Assembly: GCA_905221605.1 (NCBI GenBank)
Contig: CAJNDS010000426.1
Span: 62,001 to 126,000, forward strand
Direction of reading: 5' to 3'
Source of the DNA: Symbiodinium natans
Lineage: Eukaryota > Sar > Dinophyceae > Suessiales > Symbiodiniaceae
Length of the DNA: 64,000 nucleotides
Made by a program: the position numbers and the translations under genes. This document shows, piece by piece, positions 7,401-59,170 of this stretch. Positions within the stretch are counted from its first letter, which is position 1. Each line of letters begins with the position of its first letter. The notes under the pieces were generated by a model. It saw only the letters and a program-made list of their open reading frames with translations. It did no database searches and had not been told where the DNA came from.

Positions 7401-10400
7401 ACGTACGGCGCAGCGCGGGCACCTCAAGCTTTGTTGCGCGCCTTTGCGCATGCCTTTGCCCTTGCCTGGGCTGGGAAGTTGTGAGGCAGCTGCGTTGCTC
7501 ATGAACCTGGCCCCGCATGGCAAGATCAAGGCCACAGTTGTGTCAAATTTCGGGGGCAGCATAAGGGCATGCAAGGACATGGACATTGTGCCTTGCGGAA
7601 AAAGCAAGGAAAGAATTGTGGAAGCCGGCGCGCTGAAGCCTTTAGCGAAGTCATTGAAAGACGAGGACGAAATCTTGAAGGACCTACACAGAAGTTCTCA
7701 TCGCTTGCTGGAGAGAAGCGCAATTTTGCTGGAAAAAAATCTGCTTATGGCTGTCTCAAGGAACGTGCGGCCGGTGCCCTTGCCAATCTGTTCAACGACC
7801 ACAGTGCCAACGTGCATCAAGGTTTCCAGCAGGCACCGGGCATTATCCATATGTTACTACTATATTTGTCCAGGAAACTGCTATACTTCGTGGCATGGAC
7901 CTTTATGCATAATTTGGTTATCCTCTTACAAAAGGTACTCTTAATCGGAATAGTTCCCTCCACAAGTTAAAGCGGAACACTTGGACGTCAGTCATATAAA
8001 AGTGATTTTCAATCCCAGAGACTTTTGGCCAATCCCAGTGGGTGTTTCTCAAGACCCAAGTGGCTATACGACGACACGGCATGTGTTTATAAACGCAACA
8101 GTGTTTATGAACATGGGCTCCTGGGACAGGAACATGTTACAAATCACTAAACCAAAATCCCAAACAACCCTACCCCTGAAAACGTCACGCATCTGGTAGA
8201 CGAGGCACCTTGCGGGCGAGACGTCCGTTAACCCATTAACCCATGAACCCAATCATTTGTGCCCTACGAATGGGTCAACCCATTCCGCCATCAACCCTAT
8301 CCTTTGGCCCCGTGACTGGGTCAACCCCCACATATTTACCCATTGACCCATTGACCCCATTGACCTATGAACCCAATCCTTTTGGCCCTGTGAATGGGTT
8401 CGTGGGTTGACCCCATTCAAGGGCCCAAATATATGGGCTAATGGGTGAACGGAAACTGCATGTGTTTCTAAACACAGGACGCTTCAAAAACATTGGCGCC
8501 CGATACAAGACACCAATTCCATAAAAATCACCAAACGAGGCAGGTTACAAGAATGTGGGGCATACTCGGTTACCCAACCCAAAACCCTCACGCAAACCCT
8601 ACAGCCTATCCCCTAAACCCTAAAACCCTAAGCCCAAAAGTCTAAAACCCCACCCAGCTAGGTGGGCAGTGAAAAGGAACCTTCAACCCAAAACAAACCC
8701 TTAAAAGCCTTGACCCTAGGCAAAGCCCACAAAACCTTGAAAACCCTCAGCCCTAGCTGGCAAGATGCTCCTGTCTTGAGGGTCAGCACAGTGGCTGATG
8801 GGTTGAGTGGCGCGGAGACAAGCAAGCTGATCTGGAACCGGCAAAGTTAAGAGTCTCTGGAAGCAGGCACTGTGCAACATGTGAATATGAAGCTGTGGTG
8901 AGGTGGAGGGGGGCAAAGAGGAAGTGTCCCGTGGGAGGAGAGATGGGTCAATTCGCTATATGCCTCAGGTTGCTGGATTGTGTGGGCATACTCGTGATGT
9001 CAATGGGGTCGGTTGACGAATCACTGAAGTACATCCCCTGCCTCTCGCGTGCAAAATCGTTTCAGATTCCCAGATTTGCTCGCTTTGGGAATCTGGGAGC
9101 TTGGTGCAAATCTGGAATCTGGGAAGCTAAGGTGAGCAAATCTTGGAACCAGTCAATATTGTGACTAACATAGAACAGGCTCCGTAGTTTTAAGTCTTGG
9201 AGTTAGGATTAAATTAAGAAGATAAAGCTGCCCTGCATTTTGTCGAATATTGCCGACCTTTCAACCAGCAGAATTTATTTAAGAAGTAAATTTGACCTGC
9301 AAGTATATCCACCAACCAGTTCAGTCGTTGACACTTCACACAGAATAAGGATGCACGTGCACAAATGTGCGTGTGTGCGCACAACTGTAGTCTGTTTCTT
9401 TCGACACATACGACATCGACAAAACATGAGCAATTTGTAAATCATTAAGGTGAAGCTGTCAAAAACCGTTCAAAACTGGTGTCTTTACACATGTAAGAGC
9501 CGAAAGTGCTGTATATTTCGTGTTAGTCGAAATCTCGTCCTGGCCAAGTAAGGCCTTTCGGTAAACAAGTTTTGTGTGGTCAAAAGCACGTCTAGGTGTT
9601 AGGGCCTGGGGTATAGCATCGTTCTGAATGGTCCACATGGTGGGCTGTGCACAACAAAGAACCCTCTGCTGCAGGCGAGTGAGATGATCCCATCTTTGGT
9701 TGCGCTAATCCAAGAAGCCGGTCTCTCTGAAGACGCCAAGCGTCAAGCCGCTCATGCGCTTGCGATGTTGGCTGCTGAGGACGGAGTATTCTTTTTGTTT
9801 CAAACGTTATGCAAAAGGCTTTTACATCTGCATGTTTGCCACAGGATGGGCCGTGCGATGCTGTGTGGCAAGCGAAAGCTGGTCCTCCACTGATAGCTCT
9901 GCTTAAGGCAAGGCGTTCCGAGAAACGGCCTAGTACCGGTGCCATGTCGTAATGCGGCCATATTCTTTGTATGTTAGTTTGGAGAGTATTCAACTACTGT
10001 GGAAGACCAGACTAGCAGCAGAGCAAGTGAACAATCGGGTATGGTTGGCCAAGCATCATTGGATTGCATGTGCTGTCAGGAGATGATCGGCGAGGCTGCA
10101 TTGGGCATCATGCGCCTGGTCTGTAAAATGTGCGTGTTGCCTATCAGTAGGCGGGTTGTTGACAACCGCTTCCCAGGAACTTGTCCTGGAGATGGCCGGA
10201 AGTGAAGGCCGAACTGGCAAAGGCTGGAACCTTGGAGTACCTCATGGACATGCTGAGGCAAGGCATGCCGGCATCCCTGTTTCGGCACAAGCGCTTGACT
10301 CTGTACATGTTCTTGAACATACAAAAAGCTACCAGAACAGGCTTGGAGATGCAATGGCCAAGGAGTGCCCACGTGTTCTGTGTGTGACCCGAGCACTTCA

Positions 10401-17919: not shown

Positions 17920-18115
17920 CCTACTACTACTATTACAACTACAACTACGACTACTGCTACTACTACAACTTCTACTACTCCTAGTCCTACTCCTACTCCT
18001 ACTCCTACTCCTACTACTACTACTACTACTACTACCACTACTACCACTACTACTACTACTACGACGACGACTACTACTACTACTGCTACTACTACTTCTA
18101 CTACTACTACTACTG

Positions 18116-18180
<65 letters not shown>

Positions 18181-18298
18181 GCTACTGCTACTGCTACTGC
18201 TACTGCTACTGCTACTGCTACTGCTACTGCTACTGCTACTGCTACTGCTACTGCTACTGCTACTGCTACTGCTACTGCTACTGCTACTGCTACTGCTA

Positions 18299-18331
<33 letters not shown>

Positions 18332-18405
18332 TTGCTACTACTAGTACTACTGCTGCTGCTGCTGCTGCCACTGCTACTGCTGCTACTGCTACTGCGACCT
18401 TAAGC
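17920..18405. repeat. Block-structured trinucleotide array (CTA/CTG/CTC)
   Basis: About 480 bases of triplet repeats in ordered blocks: mixed CTA with CAA interruptions, then (CTCCTA)n near 17986-18016, mostly pure CTA to 18180, a perfect 20-copy GCTACT block at 18181-18300, a (CCTGCT)n block at 18301-18333, then mixed CTG/CTA. All six frames stay open (poly-Leu, Thr/Ala and so on), so the open frames here are artefacts. Confidence 0.95.
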
Positions 18406-18798: not shown

Positions 18799-18955
<157 letters not shown>

Positions 18956-19044
18956 GTGTTGGCACAGAATGTGCGAAGTGACATGACACGAGGCAGGGTC
19001 TGCACGCTGTAGCCGTGCAGGCCCGAGCATAGCATTTTCGAACA
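18956..19044 (+). repeat. Retroelement repeat A1 (left terminus)
   Basis: These 89 bases are identical to A2 at 26681-26769. A1 starts GTGTTGGCACAG and ends TTTTCGAACA; right after it TTCGAACA is repeated once more. Upstream is GT microsatellite DNA, so the left end is sharp. Confidence 0.92.
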
Positions 19045-19337
19045 TTCGAACATCGGGCCATGGCGAGCTAGGCCTTGGAAATCCGAGTGGAAACGGCTTG
19101 CTCGGAGCATCTTGCTGCGCTGGCGCGTGGAAGCTGGCACATTCTATGACGCAGCAATCGAGAGCATTCGACATGACTTGCGGCAACTTCATGGCCGCGT
19201 AATTCAACAGGACAGGACCCTGATAGACCGTTACTCAGACTTTGATAAATGTATTGACGTTCCGTAAGTGCTCGTCGGCCGAGCCTATACCGAGTCAGGG
19301 GTGTCAGAGTCAGGGGTGTCACAGTCAAGCGTTTTCT

Positions 19338-19371
19338 CACACGTTGTATTTTTCTTTGTTTTAGCGTGGCC
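19338..19371 (+). promoter_or_regulatory. Pyrimidine tract plus AG before the recombinase ATG (possible trans-splice acceptor)
   Basis: A T-rich run (GTATTTTTCTTTGTTTTAG) ends in AG at 19363-19364, eight bases before the ATG at 19372. In dinoflagellates, spliced-leader addition uses an AG acceptor of this kind. The position just upstream of the first ORF fits a trans-spliced element mRNA, but a chance T-run or a cis-intron acceptor is possible. Confidence 0.4.
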
Positions 19372-21111
19372 ATGTCGGCTACAGAGCTGTGGGATAGGCT
19401 TCGGCAGCGGGGTCTGCAAGATCTCGCCCCAACTCTTGTAGAAGCAGGGGTTAGGGGCCTGGAAGATGTGGCTCAGTCTCGGGAAGCCTTGCTGCAGATG
19501 GGCGTAGCCAGCTGGCGATTAGATTTGCTATGCGGCGAAGGCTCTGGATCGACTGCAGCTTTGGGACGTGTGCCTGCTCCTAGATGGGATGCCCCGCCAG
19601 TCCATAGGCGCCAGAGAGCATCGCAGGCTGAGGCATTGCGAGCGGCAGACCCTGCGCAGAGAGCTTTGGCATTGCGCGAGCTGGAGGCCGAAGTATTAGC
19701 TGCAACTTCTCAAGGCCCCGTGGCGTCCCGTCTGGCTTTCTGGAAGAAAGTTTGTGAAGCTTGGGGGGTGCCAGATTTCCCATTGACAGTGCAGAACGTG
19801 AAGGCCGTAGCTGCTTCGATGAAACGGGGTAAGTATCGCAGTTGCGCTCAGTATTTTTCGGCTGCGACTGTTTGGCAGGTGCGTAGCCTCCATCAAGAGG
19901 TAGAACCACACATTCGGGCATTGATTGCAGATTGCATCCGAAGCATCCGACGGGGATTAGGGCCCGAGGCGCTGAAGGACAGTTTTGATCCCCAGCCACT
20001 TGGTGCGCTGGTCAAGGACCCGCAGGACGGAGAGGTTTTCGATGTCACCATTCCATTTGCTGCTGTAGACATGTGCTTGATCGGTTTGTGGTTCATGTTG
20101 CGGGAGATTGAACTATCCAATGCCAGAGAACATCAGTTGTATTTGCGAGGGGGACGTGTTCACTTCATGTTGCCAGTGGAGAAGAGATCCAGTCAGGGAG
20201 ACGTGACCGAGCGTACCTTGGAATGCGCGTGCCGTTTTCGGCGGCAGCCGCTGTGCCCGTGGCACGCGGCGCAGAGACATCTCAATCGATTGCAGAATCT
20301 GAAGCATCAGCTGGGGGTGAGGGACCTGCCGCTGTTCCCAGGAGCGCGGGGGGAGACCTTGCCTAAGGAAGCCTTCGTCGGCCATGTAAGGTCCACATTG
20401 CTGGCTGCCGGCATCGAGTGCAGCAGGCCAAACGAGGTTGGTCAGCTAGAGGAGAGATTTCAGGGACATGTCCTGAGGGTCAGTGGAGCGCAGTTCTTGT
20501 GCATGATAGGGCTCCCAGGGCATCTCATACAAATGCATGGCCGGTGGACGTCCACTTCGGTGCTCAGATATCTGCAGCAGGCTCCTCTTCATTCAGTTCC
20601 AGTGGCAGCAGCGCAGGCCCTATCGTGTGGACAATCATCCGCAGCGGTTGCCATGACCGTGCAGCCGTTGTCTGAGTTGTTGAGCCCCAGGTTCTCGCAG
20701 GCAGTTGGCTCTGCGGCGGGGAGTGACAAGTCGGGCGAGGCGCGTGAGCCTCCATTGAAGAAGCCAGCATGCCAGTTGGAGCATGCAGGGCAGAGAGAGC
20801 TTGAGAAGCTTCGGAGTGAGTTAGCCGGATTGGCTAGGGCCGTCAAAGCGCCGGCCGAGGTCTGGATACAGAACCCGAGGACGAAGAAGGTCCATCGGCC
20901 TACAGGCGACGAGCTCACGTCTGGATCAGATATGTGGGCTGCACGATGTGGATGGCCATATGGCATGAGGAGGCACTTCAGGCTAGCATCGCTCTCGGAT
21001 AATGCCATAAAATGTCGTCGCTGTTTCGGCCTGACAGAAGATGGCGCAGGCTCTGACGACGGCAGTGAGGAGAGCTCCAGCTCAGTGTCTGGATCCAGTT
21101 CCGACTTGTGA
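19372..21111 (+). CDS. Retroelement ORF1: tyrosine recombinase with N-terminal SAM-like domain
   Basis: A 579-residue protein from the first ATG; the frame is open a little further upstream, but only from GTG. The catalytic set of tyrosine recombinases is complete: Arg at codon 20101-20103 (FMLREIEL), a Lys in the following hairpin (PVEKRSS), HxxR (HVLR, His at 20467), His of HGRW (20536) and the nucleophile Tyr of VLRYLQQ (20569-20571). Residues about 5-45 resemble a SAM domain (LWDRLRQRGLQDLAP). The C-terminus has a C-x-W ... C-x2-C pattern (ARCGWP, CRRCF) that may bind zinc, then an acidic Ser tail. Role: integrates the circular DNA copy by site-specific recombination, in place of an integrase. 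It precedes the gag-like ORF, an unusual position. The 668 bases that follow are non-coding. Confidence 0.88.
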   Translation: MSATELWDRLRQRGLQDLAPTLVEAGVRGLEDVAQSREALLQMGVASWRLDLLCGEGSGSTAALGRVPAPRWDAPPVHRRQRASQAEALRAADPAQRALALRELEAEVLAATSQGPVASRLAFWKKVCEAWGVPDFPLTVQNVKAVAASMKRGKYRSCAQYFSAATVWQVRSLHQEVEPHIRALIADCIRSIRRGLGPEALKDSFDPQPLGALVKDPQDGEVFDVTIPFAAVDMCLIGLWFMLREIELSNAREHQLYLRGGRVHFMLPVEKRSSQGDVTERTLECACRFRRQPLCPWHAAQRHLNRLQNLKHQLGVRDLPLFPGARGETLPKEAFVGHVRSTLLAAGIECSRPNEVGQLEERFQGHVLRVSGAQFLCMIGLPGHLIQMHGRWTSTSVLRYLQQAPLHSVPVAAAQALSCGQSSAAVAMTVQPLSELLSPRFSQAVGSAAGSDKSGEAREPPLKKPACQLEHAGQRELEKLRSELAGLARAVKAPAEVWIQNPRTKKVHRPTGDELTSGSDMWAARCGWPYGMRRHFRLASLSDNAIKCRRCFGLTEDGAGSDDGSEESSSSVSGSSSDL

Positions 21112-21779
21112 TTATAGTCGTGTAGGCGCTACTCGGGGCTTCCTCTCGCGCACGTAAAAAACAGTTAACCTAGAGCAGCGCGTGCCTGGCATGTGACAGT
21201 TGCGCCGAGTTTTTCTTGTCCGTAGCGCTGTGATGCGCTGTGTGCTCCCGCTGCTTCAGGACTTCGGCGAGTGGCCAGATACTTGGACCAGGACATCGGC
21301 GCATTCGCTGGCTCCTGGCACAGTGAGCGAGCCTTTCAGTGTGCAGGAACTCGACTGATGTTGGAAGGGCCAGGGGGCGCCCGAGGACGTTTTTCTGCCA
21401 GTCATAGAGGGTCGCCCGCTAGCGTGGGGGTGGTCGCAGTACACGTGCGTCTGCGAGCCACAGACAGTTGGGGCAGTTGGTTCCCACTGTCGTGAGAGAC
21501 CCTTGAAGTCGTAGTCGGCAGGAGCGCCAACACGGCGCAGAATGACAGCGTTGACCGCGGTGCTCCAGGTAAACGGCTCCTTGGTGTGCTGCAGGGCAGG
21601 CCTAATAATCTGTGTCCCATCCTGCAGTTTCGTATGTAAAGTGTGCGTGGTCAACAGTGTAGGCATGCAGCGCAAGCCTTGAGCATCGACGCATGTTGTG
21701 AGTGTTGTTGGTGTCGGCAGTCAGTTCGGCACAGGCACAGAGTGGTGCGGCAGGATCCCAGCCGCGTGATGCCAGCGTG
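21112..21779 (+). other. Intercistronic region between ORF1 and ORF2 of the retroelement
   Basis: The + strand shows no coding signal over 668 bases. An AG near 21719-21720, after a GT-rich stretch (GTTGTTGGTGTCGGCAG), could be a cis- or trans-splice acceptor for the downstream gag-like mRNA. An open frame on the minus strand (21256-21675) has no recognisable motif. An internal promoter here is possible but not shown. Confidence 0.4.
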
Positions 21780-22955
21780 ATGGCGCAACATTCCGGAAAG
21801 TCGCTGCAGGAGGTGGCGACGTTCGCAGGGGCTGGTCATGACATCATGCGATATCTCGACTTGCGCGGAGTCAAGTCTGTCGGGACTTTAGCCATGCTCG
21901 GGCCCTCCGAATCAGAGTTTGAGCAGTTTCTTATCCATCCGCTGTTGCAGGGTTGGGGGTCAGGGGCCGATCGCATCGAGGTTGCTGAAGCCGAGAAGCC
22001 TATTGCAACTGCCATCCTTAAATACATGAGGGCTCTGGCGGTCGAGGATCGTAAAACCGCCACAGCCGCTCATCAAGCCCCCGCCGTGCCAGCAAATCAG
22101 CAGACAGCGGCAGCTGCGGGAACATCAGCGGCAGCAGGCGATCCAGAGAAAGTGCCCAGGACTTTGCCAGCAGGAGTTTGGGCCCAGCAGCTCAAGCGAT
22201 ATCAGAGGGTCTTGATTGATGGCACTCCGCGTCCCTTTCCGGAGAAACAAATCTTGGGGGCGGAAGCCACCCTAGCAAAGTTGTGGCATCAGTTGCACAC
22301 ATCCAAGACCTACGCTCCGCTTCCTTTAGGTGAGGTGATCGCTAAGCGCAGCTTTGATGCCGGTGCCACGGTAAACCCGCTGAGCAAGCGGTCCATCTCC
22401 CAGAAGGTCGTCATCGATGTGGACAAGGACCAGCTTCGCACGGAGGAACCTGATGAGACTTGGGAGCCCCGTTCGTTGTTAGCAGTAATTGATGCTCTCA
22501 ACGCCGTGAGGTGGGCATACGTCTTCGTAGAATATGGTCCTGAACTGGAAGTGCACGCCCTTTTCGACGTCTTCGAGCAACGAGCTAGGCAGCGTTCTTC
22601 ACATCTTGACCTTTTCCGTCAGTACTACGAGGCTGCAGCTCTGCATCTGTGCATGCAGATGAGAGCGGGGCTCACATTCACGGAGGCTGCGAAGATGATC
22701 ATTGAGGACACGCACATGTTCCAGGAGGTGATGTCGCGAGATAGTCCCGTCAAGAAGCCCCCGCCCAAACGCAGACTGGATGATCCGGCCAGGGCTGGTG
22801 CGCCAGAACCCAAGCGTGGGAGGTGGGGTGCGCCGCAGCGTGGACGAGGCAGGGGTGCGGGTCGCAGCTCATCTTGGCAGTCTTGGGACAGCCGAAAGTG
22901 GGATGACAAGAGCCAGCGGGACTGGTATCAGCACTCCCACAAGGACAAAGAGTAG
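21780..22955 (+). CDS. Retroelement ORF2: gag-like RG-rich protein
   Basis: A 391-residue protein from the first ATG (MAQHSGKSLQEV); the frame is open from about 21702 without an ATG. I recognise no named domain. It has a helical N-terminal half, an Ala/Gln-rich linker (about residues 85-125), a predicted helical middle (ARQRSSHLDLFRQYYEAAA), and a strongly basic C-terminus with KKPPPKRR and RGRGRGAGR runs, typical of nucleic-acid-binding tails that replace zinc knuckles in some gag proteins. The gag role is inferred from this tail and from its place directly before the polymerase ORF. Its UAG stop (22953-22955) is in the same frame as the polymerase ORF, so readthrough would yield a gag-pol fusion. 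Confidence 0.7.
   Translation: MAQHSGKSLQEVATFAGAGHDIMRYLDLRGVKSVGTLAMLGPSESEFEQFLIHPLLQGWGSGADRIEVAEAEKPIATAILKYMRALAVEDRKTATAAHQAPAVPANQQTAAAAGTSAAAGDPEKVPRTLPAGVWAQQLKRYQRVLIDGTPRPFPEKQILGAEATLAKLWHQLHTSKTYAPLPLGEVIAKRSFDAGATVNPLSKRSISQKVVIDVDKDQLRTEEPDETWEPRSLLAVIDALNAVRWAYVFVEYGPELEVHALFDVFEQRARQRSSHLDLFRQYYEAAALHLCMQMRAGLTFTEAAKMIIEDTHMFQEVMSRDSPVKKPPPKRRLDDPARAGAPEPKRGRWGAPQRGRGRGAGRSSSWQSWDSRKWDDKSQRDWYQHSHKDKE
22953..22955 (+). promoter_or_regulatory. In-frame UAG between gag-like and methyltransferase-polymerase ORFs (candidate readthrough codon)
   Basis: ORF2 and the downstream ORF share one frame, separated only by GAG TAG GGA AGT GGG GGT GGC. There is no stop between the UAG and the polymerase ORF, and no ATG before the methyltransferase motif I. 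UAG followed by GGA and a G-rich stretch resembles gammaretroviral gag-pol readthrough contexts. A simple nonsense mutation is the alternative. Confidence 0.6.
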
Positions 22956-25900
22956 GGAAGTGGGGGTGGCACTGGAGTGGGACGGTTCCACGACCCCACC
23001 TGCCCTACGAACCCACACACCTCATCAGGAGCCTCATCCGAGTGGGGGGAGGATGCACAGCCTCGTTCCACAGCTGCTGCAGGATGTCAAGGAGAATCCT
23101 CATCCTCAGCAGTTCGGCCTCGGACCTCAGAAGAGTGGCGTGAGGAGGCCACAGCGGCTGAGGCTTACCCAGAAATCATCCACTTAGATTTTTTCAGCGG
23201 AGCGGGGTCGGCATCGCTCGCTTTGCGCAAGCTTGGCGTGCCAGTGCGCGCGCTGTTGAGCTGGGAGGTTGACCCAGCTGCGCGGGCCATCGCGCAAAAG
23301 GCATTTCAAGGGCTCCGGTATGACAGGGGAGACTTCACGCAGGATGAAGCCTCCGCGGTGGCAACGCTGGTCAGGGACACATGCCAGGGAAGTCGACTGC
23401 CAGTGTTGATCACAGCTGGGCCTCCCTGCCCAGACTACTCCAAGATCAAGTCACATCCCGCGGGGCGTGATGGATCTAGCGGAGGCCTCTTTGTGCAGTT
23501 TACGCAGTTTCTTGCGGAGTTGGAGGCGCAATTGAGTGACTTCCATTGCTTGATCCTGGTAGAGAACGTTCATATGGCCAATGGGGCGGACATCGCCTGG
23601 TTCAGCCATGCGATGAAGGCCAGTCCTATCCTGGCAGATGCTGCTGACTATGGCCTCATTGCTAGGCCCAGGCTGTGGTGGTCACGGGTGAACTGGACTA
23701 AGGTGAATCATCATCCTGAGCATGGTGGAGAACTCAAGTGGACTAAACAAGGTAAGGTTCACAGGCTCAAACTGGACGTTTGTCGAGATGAGCCGTCCCA
23801 GATTGCCATGAAAGGATTGAGTTTTCACCCCAAGGTCAATGATGGATCATGCCGACTCCCGTGCCTCACAACCCCTGCTCCAGATAGTAGTGGCCGCGAA
23901 GCGCCACGCTCTATGAAGGGGCGACTTGACTCCGCCACGCGGGGAAGATGGTTGCAAGGCGCAAGGCAATATGCTCCATGGCACTATGCCGACACTGCCA
24001 TGGTGAAGGACGCACATAACGTCTTGCAGTTGTTGCCGGCTGAGGTGAAGGAGCAGCTTCATCATTTTGATGTTGGGTTCACATCCTCGCCGCAACTCAC
24101 GCCCCGGGACCGGCATAGGTTGCTAGGGAACTCGTGGCACGTTGGTGTTGCGAAGATCCTGTTGGCCTTAGTGCTGGCGGAGACTCGGGGTAGCAGTCCT
24201 ATTGACGAGAGTGCCACTCAAGATTTTGGGAGCACCTTGAAGGAGGTGACCGCTAGTGCAAAAAGGGTTGGCATACCGATGCACAAGGCTCCTGAGCTTG
24301 GGGCACACATACTCATGATGCCTGCTGAAAACATGCTGCAGCACTGGGAGCACTCACAGCATGCGTTGCACCCTCTTGACATTCCGCCCGTCGTAGATCC
24401 CGCCATTGAGAAAACAGCGTGCCGGTTGTTGGCCGTTGGCGCGCAGGTGAGTGAGCTCAGGACTCGCGTCCTGGCAGACGTTCGGGAGCTTATTCGGGTT
24501 TCGCGTTCTAGCACTGAGGAGTGGTTCAAGTCTTTGCCCCCACATGTCCAGGACGCATACCGCTTGGAGGACGGTCGCATTGTGCAGATACCTGTGTTTA
24601 TTCGGCTGCTCCAAAGTTGCAATTATGAGGACTGTCATAACCTGCAGCGAGATCTCAGCGAGGGATTCCCGCTGCTGGGCGAGCTCCCAAGATCACCAGG
24701 TTGGCAACCGCGGACAGATGAGAAGTATCAACATCCCATTGACAGGCAGACCTTTGCCGCCCTCAACTTTTCTTATGTGTGTCAGAAATTGGCCAAACCA
24801 AAAGTAGACCCAGAATGGAGGACTTTGCTCGAGGAAATCACGGAGGAAGTGGCCCAGAATCGAATGCAGGGCCCGTTCACGGCCCCATCAAGTTGGCCGC
24901 GGCAGACAGTCGCAGTGCCTGACCGAGAAGGGTTCACACACTGCCGGCCATTGCTGGACACTCAGCCTCGTGTAGCGGGGGCGTTCTCGGTAGTACAAAT
25001 GGGTAGTGATGGGCGGCGCAAGGTCAGGAGATGCGAGGGTTATCGCCGTAGTCATCATAATTCAACAATAAAGGCGCTAGACGTGCCGGCGCATGACACG
25101 GTGGACACATACGTGCAGCTGATCCGTTTCCTGCGCGGGCTCGGACTGCGATGCACCATCTGGTGCCAGGATCTTTGGGCCGCATACCGGCAATACCCAG
25201 TGGCCAGACCGGATGAGGCGTATGTGTTGCTGCAATTGCCACATGGACCTAGCCTGTGGCGGCATTCGGTGCTCCCTTTTGGCAGCAGTTCCTCTGTTTG
25301 GTGCTTCAACCGCTGCACGGACGCGTTGCTTTTCCTGGGCCGGTGCTTGCTACTGTGCTTGGTGCTGCGTTTTGTGGATGATATCGGGTCTCCTGACGCG
25401 GAGTGGAGTGCCAACAGTAGTTTCTCGGCTTTCAGCGAGCTTTGTGAATTGTTGGGTTTGCGGTTGAAACCTTCTAAAGCCCAACCCCCGAGCAACGTGC
25501 AGAAGTTGTTAGGGGTGACCATTTCCGTGAAGGAAGAAGGTATTGTCCTTGAACCCACGCCGCAAAGGATACAGAAGGTTAGGGCTGCGTTGCAACAGGC
25601 GCTGGCGTCTGACAGTCTGACTCCCGAAGAGGCGGCTCGCGTCACGGGCAAGATCAACTTCCTGAATACCACCATGTTCGGGCAATTGGGTGCATCGGCC
25701 ATGCAACCACTTTACGCCAGAGCAAGAGACTGCCGGGGAGATTCGAGTCATAGTCTCAATGGGGCGTTGAGGAGCGCGTTGACCACTCTGAACGCTATTC
25801 TCGCCAATCCAGTCCCCAGGGTCATCCCATATGGCGATGGAGCGCCAGCGCAGATTGTGTTGTATGCAGATGCCTTTTTCGAGCTGGGAGACTCTTCCTT

Positions 25901-26465
25901 TGGGCTGGCAGACAATCCGCCGGAGCATTGGTCCACTTCTCGTTGCCGATATTATCGAAATGGTCTGGGATTCGTTTTGCGCACTCCGCAGGGAGTGCGT
26001 TGCACACACACTTCGGTGCCAGCGTACGTGCTTTCTTTGTTTTCATCTAGAAGGGCTTATATTTATGCTCTGGAAATCTTAGCGCAGCTTCTGGGTGTCT
26101 TGACCAGCTTGGATGTAGTGCGCGGCCGCTGGATTGGTTTCATTGACAACACCGCAGGCAGGGCGGCTTTGAACAGAGGATATGGGCGAGACCCGGCCAT
26201 CAACCACCTATTAGCATTCTTCTGGGCCTTCGCATCAAGAGTGCAGTGGAGCCCACATTTTGAATGGGTGCCGAGCGAGCTAAACGTATCTGACCCGATT
26301 TCGCGAGGGGATTGGGAGTTGGCCTCACGCGGAGGCTGGAGCAAGCTAGACTCTCCTTTGGAGCCCTTGTGGCGCATATTCGCCAAGGTCGCAGGGGACT
26401 TGCGCTACGCGGTCGGTCAGGCCGTGGATGATGTGGTGGCCCTTCAGTGGAGTTTTCAGATTTGA
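22956..26465 (+). CDS. Retroelement ORF3: DNMT3-like C5 methyltransferase - reverse transcriptase - RNase H
   Basis: About 1,169 residues with no initiating ATG, probably made by UAG readthrough. Methyltransferase: motif I DFFSGAG (23187), catalytic motif IV AGPPCPDYS (Cys at 23427-23429), motif VI ENVHM (23562), motif VIII ARPRLWW and motif X RHRLLGNSWHV (Gly 24126). The spacing, ARPRLWW and the terminal LLGNSW resemble DNMT3 proteins more than bacterial enzymes; it should transfer methyl from SAM to cytosine C5. A linker of about 250 residues follows. RT: CRPLLDTQPR (24945), QDLWAAYRQYP (catalytic Asp 25170-25172) and FVDD (25371-25382). RNase H: YADAFFE, ALEIL, FIDNTAG and NVSDPISRG supply the D-E-D-D set. 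The RT-RH pair is of DIRS type. It ends 43 bases before B1. No catalytic residue is visibly lost. Confidence 0.9.
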   Translation, partial: GSGGGTGVGRFHDPTCPTNPHTSSGASSEWGEDAQPRSTAAAGCQGESSSSAVRPRTSEEWREEATAAEAYPEIIHLDFFSGAGSASLALRKLGVPVRALLSWEVDPAARAIAQKAFQGLRYDRGDFTQDEASAVATLVRDTCQGSRLPVLITAGPPCPDYSKIKSHPAGRDGSSGGLFVQFTQFLAELEAQLSDFHCLILVENVHMANGADIAWFSHAMKASPILADAADYGLIARPRLWWSRVNWTKVNHHPEHGGELKWTKQGKVHRLKLDVCRDEPSQIAMKGLSFHPKVNDGSCRLPCLTTPAPDSSGREAPRSMKGRLDSATRGRWLQGARQYAPWHYADTAMVKDAHNVLQLLPAEVKEQLHHFDVGFTSSPQLTPRDRHRLLGNSWHVGVAKILLALVLAETRGSSPIDESATQDFGSTLKEVTASAKRVGIPMHKAPELGAHILMMPAENMLQHWEHSQHALHPLDIPPVVDPAIEKTACRLLAVGAQVSELRTRVLADVRELIRVSRSSTEEWFKSLPPHVQDAYRLEDGRIVQIPVFIRLLQSCNYEDCHNLQRDLSEGFPLLGELPRSPGWQPRTDEKYQHPIDRQTFAALNFSYVCQKLAKPKVDPEWRTLLEEITEEVAQNRMQGPFTAPSSWPRQTVAVPDREGFTHCRPLLDTQPRVAGAFSVVQMGSDGRRKVRRCEGYRRSHHNSTIKALDVPAHDTVDTYVQLIRFLRGLGLRCTIWCQDLWAAYRQYPVARPDEAYVLLQLPHGPSLWRHSVLPFGSSSSVWCFNRCTDALLFLGRCLLLCLVLRFVDDIGSPDAEWSANSSFSAFSELCELLGLRLKPSKAQPPSNVQKLLGVTISVKEEGIVLEPTPQRIQKVRAALQQALASDSLTPEEAARVTGKINFLNTTMFGQLGASAMQPLYARARDCRGDSSHSLNGALRSALTTLNAILANPVPRVIPYGDGAPAQIVLYADAFFELGDSSFGLADNPPEHWSTSRCRYYRNGLGFVLRTPQGVRCTHTSVPAYVLSLFSSRRAYIYALEILAQLLGVLTSLDVVRGRWIGFIDNTAGRAALNRGYGRDPAINHLLAFFWAFASRVQWSPHFEWVPSELNVSDPISRGDWELASRGGWSKLDSPLEPLWRIFAKVAGDLRYAVGQAVDDVVALQWSFQI

Positions 26466-26508
26466 ACGATTCTCCTATGACCCGCCACGGGGTGGGGATG
26501 GGGCTGTG

Positions 26509-26680
26509 CCGGGTGGCGGTCAGACTGCACAGCCCGAAGTCCCTCACCCGTGAGCCGAGAAAGCGAATGCGAATCCACGTGAGCTTCACCCGAGATTCAA
26601 GCACACCACAGCTCCGTGGGATGGTGAAGACAAAGCATCGTAGTCATTCTTGCATTCAAGAGCATGCCGAGTCACATGTC
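26509..26680 (+). repeat. Retroelement repeat B1
   Basis: These 172 bases are identical to B2 (26830-27001) and directly abut A2. The B1-A2 junction reproduces the joined right and left ends of the element, as expected of a circular intermediate. It contains a small hairpin, CTCAC-CC-GTGAG. Confidence 0.92.
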
Positions 26681-26769
26681 GTGTTGGCACAGAATGTGCG
26701 AAGTGACATGACACGAGGCAGGGTCTGCACGCTGTAGCCGTGCAGGCCCGAGCATAGCATTTTCGAACA
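26681..26769 (+). repeat. Retroelement repeat A2
   Basis: These 89 bases are identical to A1. They lie immediately after B1 with no spacer, and are followed by a 60-base segment before B2. Confidence 0.92.
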
Positions 26770-26829
26770 CCCTCCCACCACTCCCAAGGAGTAACGTTAA
26801 GGGGGTGCCACGTGGCATTCCACGGCTCT
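26770..26829 (+). other. 60-base spacer between A2 and B2, with palindrome
   Basis: This segment is unique within the element. It contains a perfect 12-base palindrome TGCCACGTGGCA (26806-26817) and the 8-base palindrome TAACGTTA. It may be a recombinase or regulatory site; function is not shown. Confidence 0.6.
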
Positions 26830-26997
26830 CCGGGTGGCGGTCAGACTGCACAGCCCGAAGTCCCTCACCCGTGAGCCGAGAAAGCGAATGCGAATCCACG
26901 TGAGCTTCACCCGAGATTCAAGCACACCACAGCTCCGTGGGATGGTGAAGACAAAGCATCGTAGTCATTCTTGCATTCAAGAGCATGCCGAGTCACA

Positions 26998-27001
<4 letters not shown>
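26830..27001 (+). repeat. Retroelement repeat B2 (right terminus)
   Basis: A 172-base copy of B1, ending CACATGTC and followed at once by TGTGTG. This defines the right end of the element. Confidence 0.92.
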
Positions 27002-27096
<95 letters not shown>

Positions 27097-27199
27097 TGTT
27101 GTTGTGGTGTGTGTGTGTGTGTGTGTGGTGTGTGTTTGTGTGTGTGTGTGTGTGTGTTGGTTGTGGTGTGTGTGTGTGTGTGTGTGTGTGTTGTGTTGT

Positions 27200-27240
<41 letters not shown>

Positions 27241-27410
27241 TGGTGTGTGTGGTGTGTGTGTGTGTGTGTGAGTGGTTTGTTTTGGTCCGCGGTGTGTGTG
27301 TGTGTGTGTGTTTGTGTTTGTGTTTGTGTTTGTGTTTGTGTTTGTGTTTGTGTTTGTGTTTGTGTTTGTGTTTGTGTGTGTGGGTGGGTGGGTTGGGTGG
27401 GTGGGTGTGG
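27002..27410. repeat. TG microsatellite with interruptions and TTTGTG hexamers, right flank
   Basis: TG runs are broken by GTTG and GGTG variants; a run of about eleven TTTGTG hexamers lies near 27310-27376, then GGTGGG units. The first 90 bases are nearly pure TG, mirroring the left flank of the retroelement. Confidence 0.93.
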
Positions 27411-58379: not shown

Positions 58380-58620
58380 ATGTGTACATGTATACATCTA
58401 TACGGCGTCTGCACTGTCTGCATTGTCTGCATGATATGCATTGCATGTGTATGAAGGTATGCATTCATACAAATCTACACGTATACAGTAATTTATACCT
58501 CTACGCATCTTTAGATCTGTATATTCATACATCAATCCATCTGTACATTTTTGCATGTTATGCATTTATATATGCATACATATCTATACATCTCTATACA
58601 TCTCTGTACATGTTTTTGGT
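58380..58620. repeat. TACA/TATACAT-rich low-complexity DNA
   Basis: Irregular repeats of CATACA, CTATACAT and TCTGTACA give spurious Tyr/Ile/His/Cys frames. Confidence 0.75.
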
Positions 58621-58685
58621 AGGACGCACCCTCGTGTGCCCTGCGTTTCCTGGGGTTTCCAGCTTGGGGGGTTGGGGGGGGGGGT

Positions 58686-58910
58686 TGGGAATATCCATGT
58701 TGGGAATATCCATGTTGGGAGTATCCATGTTGGGAATATTCATGTTGGGAATATACATGTTGGGAATATCCATGTTGGGAATATCCATGTTGGGAATATC
58801 CATGTTGGGAATATCCATGTTGGGAATATCCATGTTGGGAATACCCATTTTGGGAATATCCATGTTGGGAGTATCCATGTTGGGAATATCCATGTTGCGA
58901 ATATACATAG
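58686..58910. repeat. 15-base minisatellite (TTGGGAATATCCATG), about 15 copies
   Basis: Fifteen-base units occur in tandem with scattered single-base variants (GTATCC, ATATTC, ATACCC). Because 15 is a multiple of three, frames on both strands stay open as pentapeptide repeats; I do not treat these as genes. Confidence 0.95.
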
Positions 58911-58937
58911 CACTTGCTGCAGGCATCTCCCCCCGAA

Positions 58938-59170
58938 AAAAATGCCGGCCCCAAGCATCCCAAAATCCTTTCTTGCCTGATCCTTCAAGTCCACCAAAGC
59001 AGTCCAAGCCCAAACCTTCCCAAAGCCTTTTTGACCAAAACCTTCAAGCCCAAGCATCCCCAAAGCAGTCCAAGCCCAAACATTCCCAAATCCTCTCTTG
59101 AAAGACCAAGCCCAAACCTTCCCAAAGCCTCTTTTGCCGACACATACACAAGGACATGCAAGCCCCAAAA
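58938..59170. repeat. Degenerate CAAGCCCAAACCTTCCCAAAG minisatellite
   Basis: Units built from CAAGCCCAA, (A)CATTCCCAAA and GCAGTCC recur about eight times. Period is about 20-27 bases and irregular. Confidence 0.8.

Follow-up and report, generated by a model that had tools for sequence, protein, structure and literature searches.

A probable SymbioDIRS-Dnmt3 retrotransposon with exact termini and a sister insertion in Symbiodinium natans

We analysed a stretch of 64,000 nucleotides from the dinoflagellate Symbiodinium natans (contig CAJNDS010000426.1, positions 62,001 to 126,000; hereafter the window). Positions 18956..27001 of the window very probably hold a young, structurally complete retrotransposon of the SymbioDIRS-Dnmt3 family, with a tyrosine recombinase (YR). 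The present analysis established where the element ends and how its repeats are organised, and it showed that the catalytic residues are conserved, that a second insertion elsewhere shares the same ends, and that a DNA methyltransferase (DNMT) and a reverse transcriptase (RT) have been inherited together. In this family, nature provides an example of a retroelement equipped with its own DNA methyltransferase. The window copy contributes exact termini, a same-ended sister insertion and a gag-like gene that keeps its place in the gene order of other Symbiodinium gene models. It also raises a concrete and testable question, namely by which route the methyltransferase is expressed.

Termini, repeats and a second insertion

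The element and its parts lie on the forward strand. Its left terminus is repeat A1 (18956..19044), which starts with GTGTTGG, and its right terminus is repeat B2 (26830..27001), which ends with CACATGTC. The inner repeats B1 (26509..26680) and A2 (26681..26769) abut each other directly, and a spacer of 60 nucleotides (26770..26829) separates A2 from B2. By direct comparison, A1 and A2 agree at every base (89 of 89), as do B1 and B2 (172 of 172). Three large open reading frames (ORFs) are located between A1 and B1, encoding a YR, a gag-like protein and a DNMT-RT-RNase H protein. The resulting order, A1-ORFs-B1A2-B2, is the known scheme of split direct repeats. When the outer ends are joined, the B2/A1 junction equals the inner B1/A2 junction across 20+20 nucleotides, and the structure of the element therefore predicts its own termini. 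The original prediction had described the two repeat pairs, their order and the three ORFs, all of which proved to be placed correctly to the base; its description of the element as a split-direct-repeat YR retroelement with precise ends and a C5-cytosine DNMT is likewise supported.

Within the window, the A-end pattern occurred at A1 and A2 only. The B-end pattern occurred at B1, at B2 and at seven looser places; this is the level expected by chance, and further element ends elsewhere in the window were rejected. A tblastn search (E <= 1) detected no more copies of the element proteins in the window.

A whole-element search of the host assembly (759 Mb, 2543 contigs) identified at least two places, both full length: the window and C1749:671817-679862, hereafter copy 2. 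Among the places returned, the number of which is a lower bound, none had A/B repeats lacking the ORFs. Different termini in other copies would have spoken against the original prediction; the one further copy found (L010) shares both the start and the end of the window copy. The two copies differ by 18 substitutions, of which 16 are transitions, and by four indel columns over 8048 alignment columns. Recent insertion, which had been proposed from the window copy, is supported. The known scheme, the equality of the B2/A1 and B1/A2 junctions and the same-ended copy in unrelated flanks make the repeat arrangement more than a product of chance.

The two copies found are 99.8% alike across the element, as they would be if the C1749 copy were a segmental or assembly duplicate of the window locus instead of a second transposition. 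However, the identity stops at both ends, and blastn detected no resemblance between the flanks (left, 2 kb; right, 3 kb), which leaves the probability of such a duplicate close to negligible. YR retroelements (order DIRS) integrate without target-site duplication, and no target duplication was found at copy 2 when 1-20 flank bases were compared across the insertion. The window copy shows a 1-base flank match that lies inside TG repeats, so that it cannot be judged as a duplication.

The B repeats carry a possible trace of the copying mechanism. Element positions 7607 and 7928, which are the same base of B1 and B2, are A in both repeats of the window copy and G in both repeats of copy 2. A shared change of this kind is expected if each cycle derives the two B repeats from a single template, and it is sequence evidence for the template model of split direct repeats. 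As a counterpoint, gene conversion between B1 and B2 within one copy could look alike. Copy 2 B1 alone differs at repeat position 168, which fits a mutation that arose once the copy had inserted. Within copy 2, A1 and A2 do not differ.

Coding genes and joint inheritance of the methyltransferase and the reverse transcriptase

The DNMT-RT-RNase H ORF (pol; 22956..26465) spans 1169 amino acids from stop to stop. It matched the Pfam families DNA_methylase (3.8e-8, above cut-off) and RVT_1 (5.2e-4, below cut-off). Its Dnmt3-type C5-cytosine methyltransferase domain (23166..24185) contains motif I at 23190, PC at 23424, ENV at 23562, RPR at 23664 and GN at 24126. The RT domain (24636..25775) carries VDD at 25374-25382, and it is followed by an RNase H domain (25776..26375) with D972, E1040, D1064 and D1113. 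The RNase H domain was assigned by motif. We aligned the window protein with 27 hand-picked proteins of the 64 matches described below (alignment A1), a selection that left out some long ones (e.g. P0008 and P0023). The DNMT residues Pro157-Cys158, ENV, RxR and Asn392 were present in 28 of 28 rows. The RT residues Asp808 and Asp809 were also found in all 28 rows and Asp739 in 27, and the four RNase H residues were kept in 27, 26, 26 and 24 rows, respectively.

A search of PDB with the window pol (up to E 1) gave 31 matches, consisting of 29 entries named DNMT3A, 3B or 3C and two named "DNA methyltransferase". The profile built from the 28 rows gave 35 PDB matches (E <= 0.001), named DNMT3A, 3B, 3C, DRM2 or DNA methyltransferase. 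Judged from its sequence, the methyltransferase is a Dnmt3-type C5 enzyme, not a Dam-like one.

The search with the DNMT-RT-RNase H protein retrieved 64 proteins (E <= 0.001). Only 8000 candidates sharing most words were scored and the search was limited by length, so that other layouts are under-sampled in the counts that follow. Both the window DNMT and the window RT were matched by 58 of the 64 proteins (blastp, E <= 1e-4), with the DNMT first in 58 of 58. The remaining matches were to RT-RNase H only (four proteins), to the DNMT only (one) and to the RT only (one). In all five proteins matching both YR and DNMT, which come from Symbiodinium sp. CCMP2592 (three), S. necroappetens and S. microadriaticum, the order is YR-gag-DNMT-RT, and this order is therefore a trait of the lineage.

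Trees of the DNMT and of the RT-RNase H region were built from the same 28 rows. In both of them the sisters of the window row were P0002, P0003, P0011 and P0013 (supports 99/95 and 99/99, respectively), and both placed the window inside the same ten-row group (99/97 for the DNMT and 100/99 for RT-RNase H). Because the four sisters and the ten-row group are the same in both trees, the DNMT and the RT have travelled together. Among these 28 rows, the window protein nests with Symbiodinium and other proteins holding a DNMT in the same ORF. The nearest pol homologue, apart from the copy-2-type protein P0001, is 52% identical, which makes the element a distinct subfamily of the SymbioDIRS-Dnmt3 kind. 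P0001 (pol, with Ile896) and P0065 (a YR piece, with Leu244) are both of copy-2 type, not proteins of the window copy, and an ENA contig 86,265 bases long holds both of them.

Among the pol matches, P0064 (885 amino acids) is a distant RT match in which Pfam names RT only and a PDB search gave nothing useful; its N-terminal stretch looks methyltransferase-like by eye (FAGTGG ... APPCGTAS), and it is perhaps another type of methyltransferase-RT element. P0063 (1420 amino acids) carries its DNMT domain (862-1180) close to the C-terminus, and neither Pfam nor comparison with the window RT gave an RT match. It may be an unrelated DNMT protein or have the other of the two SymbioDIRS architectures. 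Scans of viral contigs with the pol protein and with the pol, YR and gag alignments revealed no element, nor did a scan of genome contigs with the YR alignment. In the scan with the pol alignment, eight viral contigs (L001-L008) gave weak matches of 25-30% confined to the DNMT motif region.

The first ORF of the element encodes the YR (19372..21111; 579 amino acids from ATG). It comprises an N-terminal helical part, which is SAM-like in some relatives, the YR catalytic domain and a C-terminal H..C..C..C motif. We aligned it with 30 hand-picked proteins of 62 YR matches (alignment A5). Arg244, Lys271, His366 and Arg369 were kept in 31 of 31 rows and Tyr400 in 30. Cre was a weak match to the YR profile (best E 0.00078), the strongest part being the His-Arg-Trp-Tyr stretch. 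Pfam Phage_integrase was detected in 22 of the 31 rows and SAM_EPH in five (E <= 0.1), the match of the window YR to Phage_integrase being below the curated cut-off. The predicted structure of the YR had a mean pLDDT (predicted local distance difference test) of 76.8 and a pTM (predicted template modelling score) of 0.50. With RT, RNase H and the catalytic YR residues all present, the element belongs to the order DIRS. After the catalytic domain, a His-Cys-Cys-Cys set (window positions 20893-21024; YR residues 508, 526, 548 and 551) was kept in 31, 31, 30 and 31 of 31 rows and extends to distant rows of about 28-30% identity. This set is possibly a zinc-binding domain that contacts DNA.

The gag-like ORF (21780..22955; 390 amino acids from ATG plus the stop) has a basic, RG-rich C-terminus. 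Six homologues were found, with identities of 44-53%, and all six were aligned with the window protein (alignment A4). The ORF had no Pfam match up to E 10, and the single PDB match of its profile (E 0.64) was disregarded. The label "gag" therefore rests on position, the basic tail and conservation.

Expression of the methyltransferase and mobility of the element

The gag-like and DNMT-RT-RNase H ORFs are in one frame, separated by a single UAG (22953..22955) and no other stop; the same UAG is present in copy 2. We consider this UAG a candidate readthrough stop. The linker of 77 codons that follows it is open in the gag frame, as expected if the linker is translated, while a base-shuffled linker was open in 354 of 5000 cases. 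Because the DNMT-RT-RNase H ORF also lacks an AUG upstream of the catalytic cysteine, readthrough of the UAG, giving a gag-DNMT-RT-RNase H fusion, is a plausible route of expression. Gammaretroviruses make a comparable gag-pol fusion.

Splicing, a non-AUG start or reinitiation could produce the DNMT-RT-RNase H protein in place of readthrough, and we consider such a route nearly as probable as not. Six gene models from other Symbiodinium genomes (P0013, P0016, P0041, P0048, P0058 and P0062) fuse gag and DNMT, possibly across predicted introns, and linker homology was seen in the copy-2-type protein P0001 only. No significant RNA fold was found past the UAG, the energy of the fold being no better than that of shuffles (z -0.07), and a readthrough hairpin was rejected on this ground. 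However, the shared frame of gag and pol, the single stop between them and the open linker speak for readthrough over these routes.

Several other observations, together with the lack of a fold, weigh against the favoured reading of the element as a young, structurally complete family member. The first in-frame ATG of the DNMT-RT-RNase H ORF (23574) is inside the DNMT domain, past the catalytic cysteine. As we read them, the gag ORFs of the relatives P0129 and P0131 extend beyond the usual gag end, that of P0129 in a frame other than that of pol; this also speaks against readthrough, and for this reason the same-frame layout of gag and pol is not established as a family trait. The reported transcription of SymbioDIRS-Dnmt3 elements is biased to the 5' region and does not cover Pol or the recombinase, and most such elements are reported to be silent (PMC5890265). 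In copy 2, a frameshift of one base breaks the YR, and Leu replaces its first catalytic Arg. Transitions of the CG type show no excess between the copies (6 of 16 against 29% expected, p 0.30), on which basis a CG-deamination signature was rejected, and the same paper reports no CG depletion in SymbioDIRS.

The change to Leu is not a slip of the host assembly, because the Leu form recurs in P0065, which is another record. Since its YR ORF is broken, copy 2 is not autonomous today. Judged on the two sequences, this speaks against autonomy as a rule. The gag-like and DNMT-RT-RNase H ORFs of copy 2 are equal in length to those of the window copy, and the two copies differ in gag and pol by five substitutions: three silent, one Val/Ile and one Phe/Leu. 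The original prediction that the window copy may be autonomous may or may not hold: its three ORFs are unbroken, but the DNMT-RT-RNase H ORF lacks an AUG before the catalytic Cys and the YR of copy 2 is broken.

A further explanation is that the window copy is a dead end, with ORFs that are intact only through recent insertion, in a family that is no longer self-mobile in this host. The damaged YR of copy 2, the same Leu form in P0065 and the reported silence of most such elements would fit this. However, the two copies, with their 18 substituted positions, are at least one transposition apart, and three of the five changes in gag and pol are silent. We regard a dead-end copy as unlikely, if still worth considering.

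For the element, the following cycle can be proposed. The transcript would yield the gag-like protein; the DNMT-RT-RNase H protein would perhaps arise when the gag UAG is read through, and its RT would produce complementary DNA (cDNA). With the inner B1A2 unit as template, both ends would be joined to form a circle containing a single B/A junction, which the YR would insert with no duplication of the target. The Dnmt3 domain is tethered to the RT and would most likely methylate CG on the new cDNA, as proposed in PMC5890265. It is a rather doubtful extension that gag-pol readthrough makes this de novo cytosine methyltransferase only as a minor gag-DNMT-RT-RNase H fusion, so that the capacity to methylate enters the particle together with the RT and stays there. 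If so, each new cDNA would be methylated before the YR inserts it, and the host genome would not be flooded.

Insertion site and relation to known systems

The element is flanked on the left by a (GT)n microsatellite of 150 nucleotides (18802..18951) and on the right by a (TG)n-rich microsatellite (27002..27409). Both are target DNA, not part of the element, and both are absent at copy 2. These arrays are the sole long ones of their kind in the window, and there are precedents for YR elements in simple repeats, namely TATE in telomere repeats and some nimavirus YRs with telomere-type repeats (PMC6681497 and PMC10871703). The YR might thus target TG microsatellites by recombining the circle with (TG)n DNA. 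However, copy 2 is in unrelated sequence without a TG/CA run of at least 8 units in its flanks (left, 2 kb; right, 3 kb), which makes such targeting very unlikely. It was dropped as a rule, and no TG specificity is claimed because only one of the two insertions is in such an array.

Other features of the window include a (CTACTA)n-type array of 473 nucleotides (17921-18393), about 560 nucleotides upstream of the element and near the TG array. A unit of 15 nucleotides is repeated 15 times (93% matching) at 58684-58908, within an open frame (58382-59101) without a Pfam match. Ten other ORFs of the window had no Pfam match at E <= 0.01, and an Rfam scan of the window gave no match at the gathering score.

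Among known systems, the element is closest to SymbioDIRS-Dnmt3 (de Mendoza et al. 2018, PMC5890265). As described in the main text of that paper, these elements have A-coding-B-A-B repeats, a DNMT that shares the Pol ORF with the RT, and a separate YR ORF; they occur in two architectures, their DNMT is under purifying selection, and two distantly related DNMTs of the family methylate CG in yeast. The repeats, the Dnmt3-type DNMT in the RT ORF, the separate YR ORF and the Symbiodinium relatives were all found for the present element, which therefore joins the published family. The combination of C5-DNMT, YR and split repeats had been thought to lack a family-level description, which was in fact already given in 2018. 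In contrast, the words gag, readthrough, microsatellite and target site have no occurrence in the main text of PMC5890265, which mentions neither a gag-like ORF nor a target site, and the pol of the element is 52% identical to its nearest homologue apart from the copy 2 protein.

PAT-like elements (order DIRS) share with the element the split direct repeats A1-B1-A2-B2, RT, RNase H, YR and a methyltransferase domain (PMC4157794). However, the methyltransferase of the DIRS class is a Dam-like N6-adenine enzyme according to PMC5890265, whereas the only methyltransferase domain matched in the element is of the C5 Dnmt3 type and is N-terminal of the RT. The element also has the YR as its first ORF. 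Ngaro elements share split direct repeats, YR and RT-RNase H but lack a methyltransferase domain according to PMC4157794; the DNMT thus sets the element apart from Ngaro. The kinetoplastid elements VIPER and TATE have split direct repeats of similar size (173 bp for A and 219 bp for B in VIPER of T. cruzi, 100% identical) and a gag-like ORF that is defined mostly by position, and TATE is located in a simple repeat. Unlike the present element, their three ORFs are gag-like, YR and RT-RNase H, with no DNMT mentioned in the sections of PMC6681497 drawn on here. Relative to the published SymbioDIRS-Dnmt3 family, the window copy offers a sharper anatomy and one more insertion for comparison.

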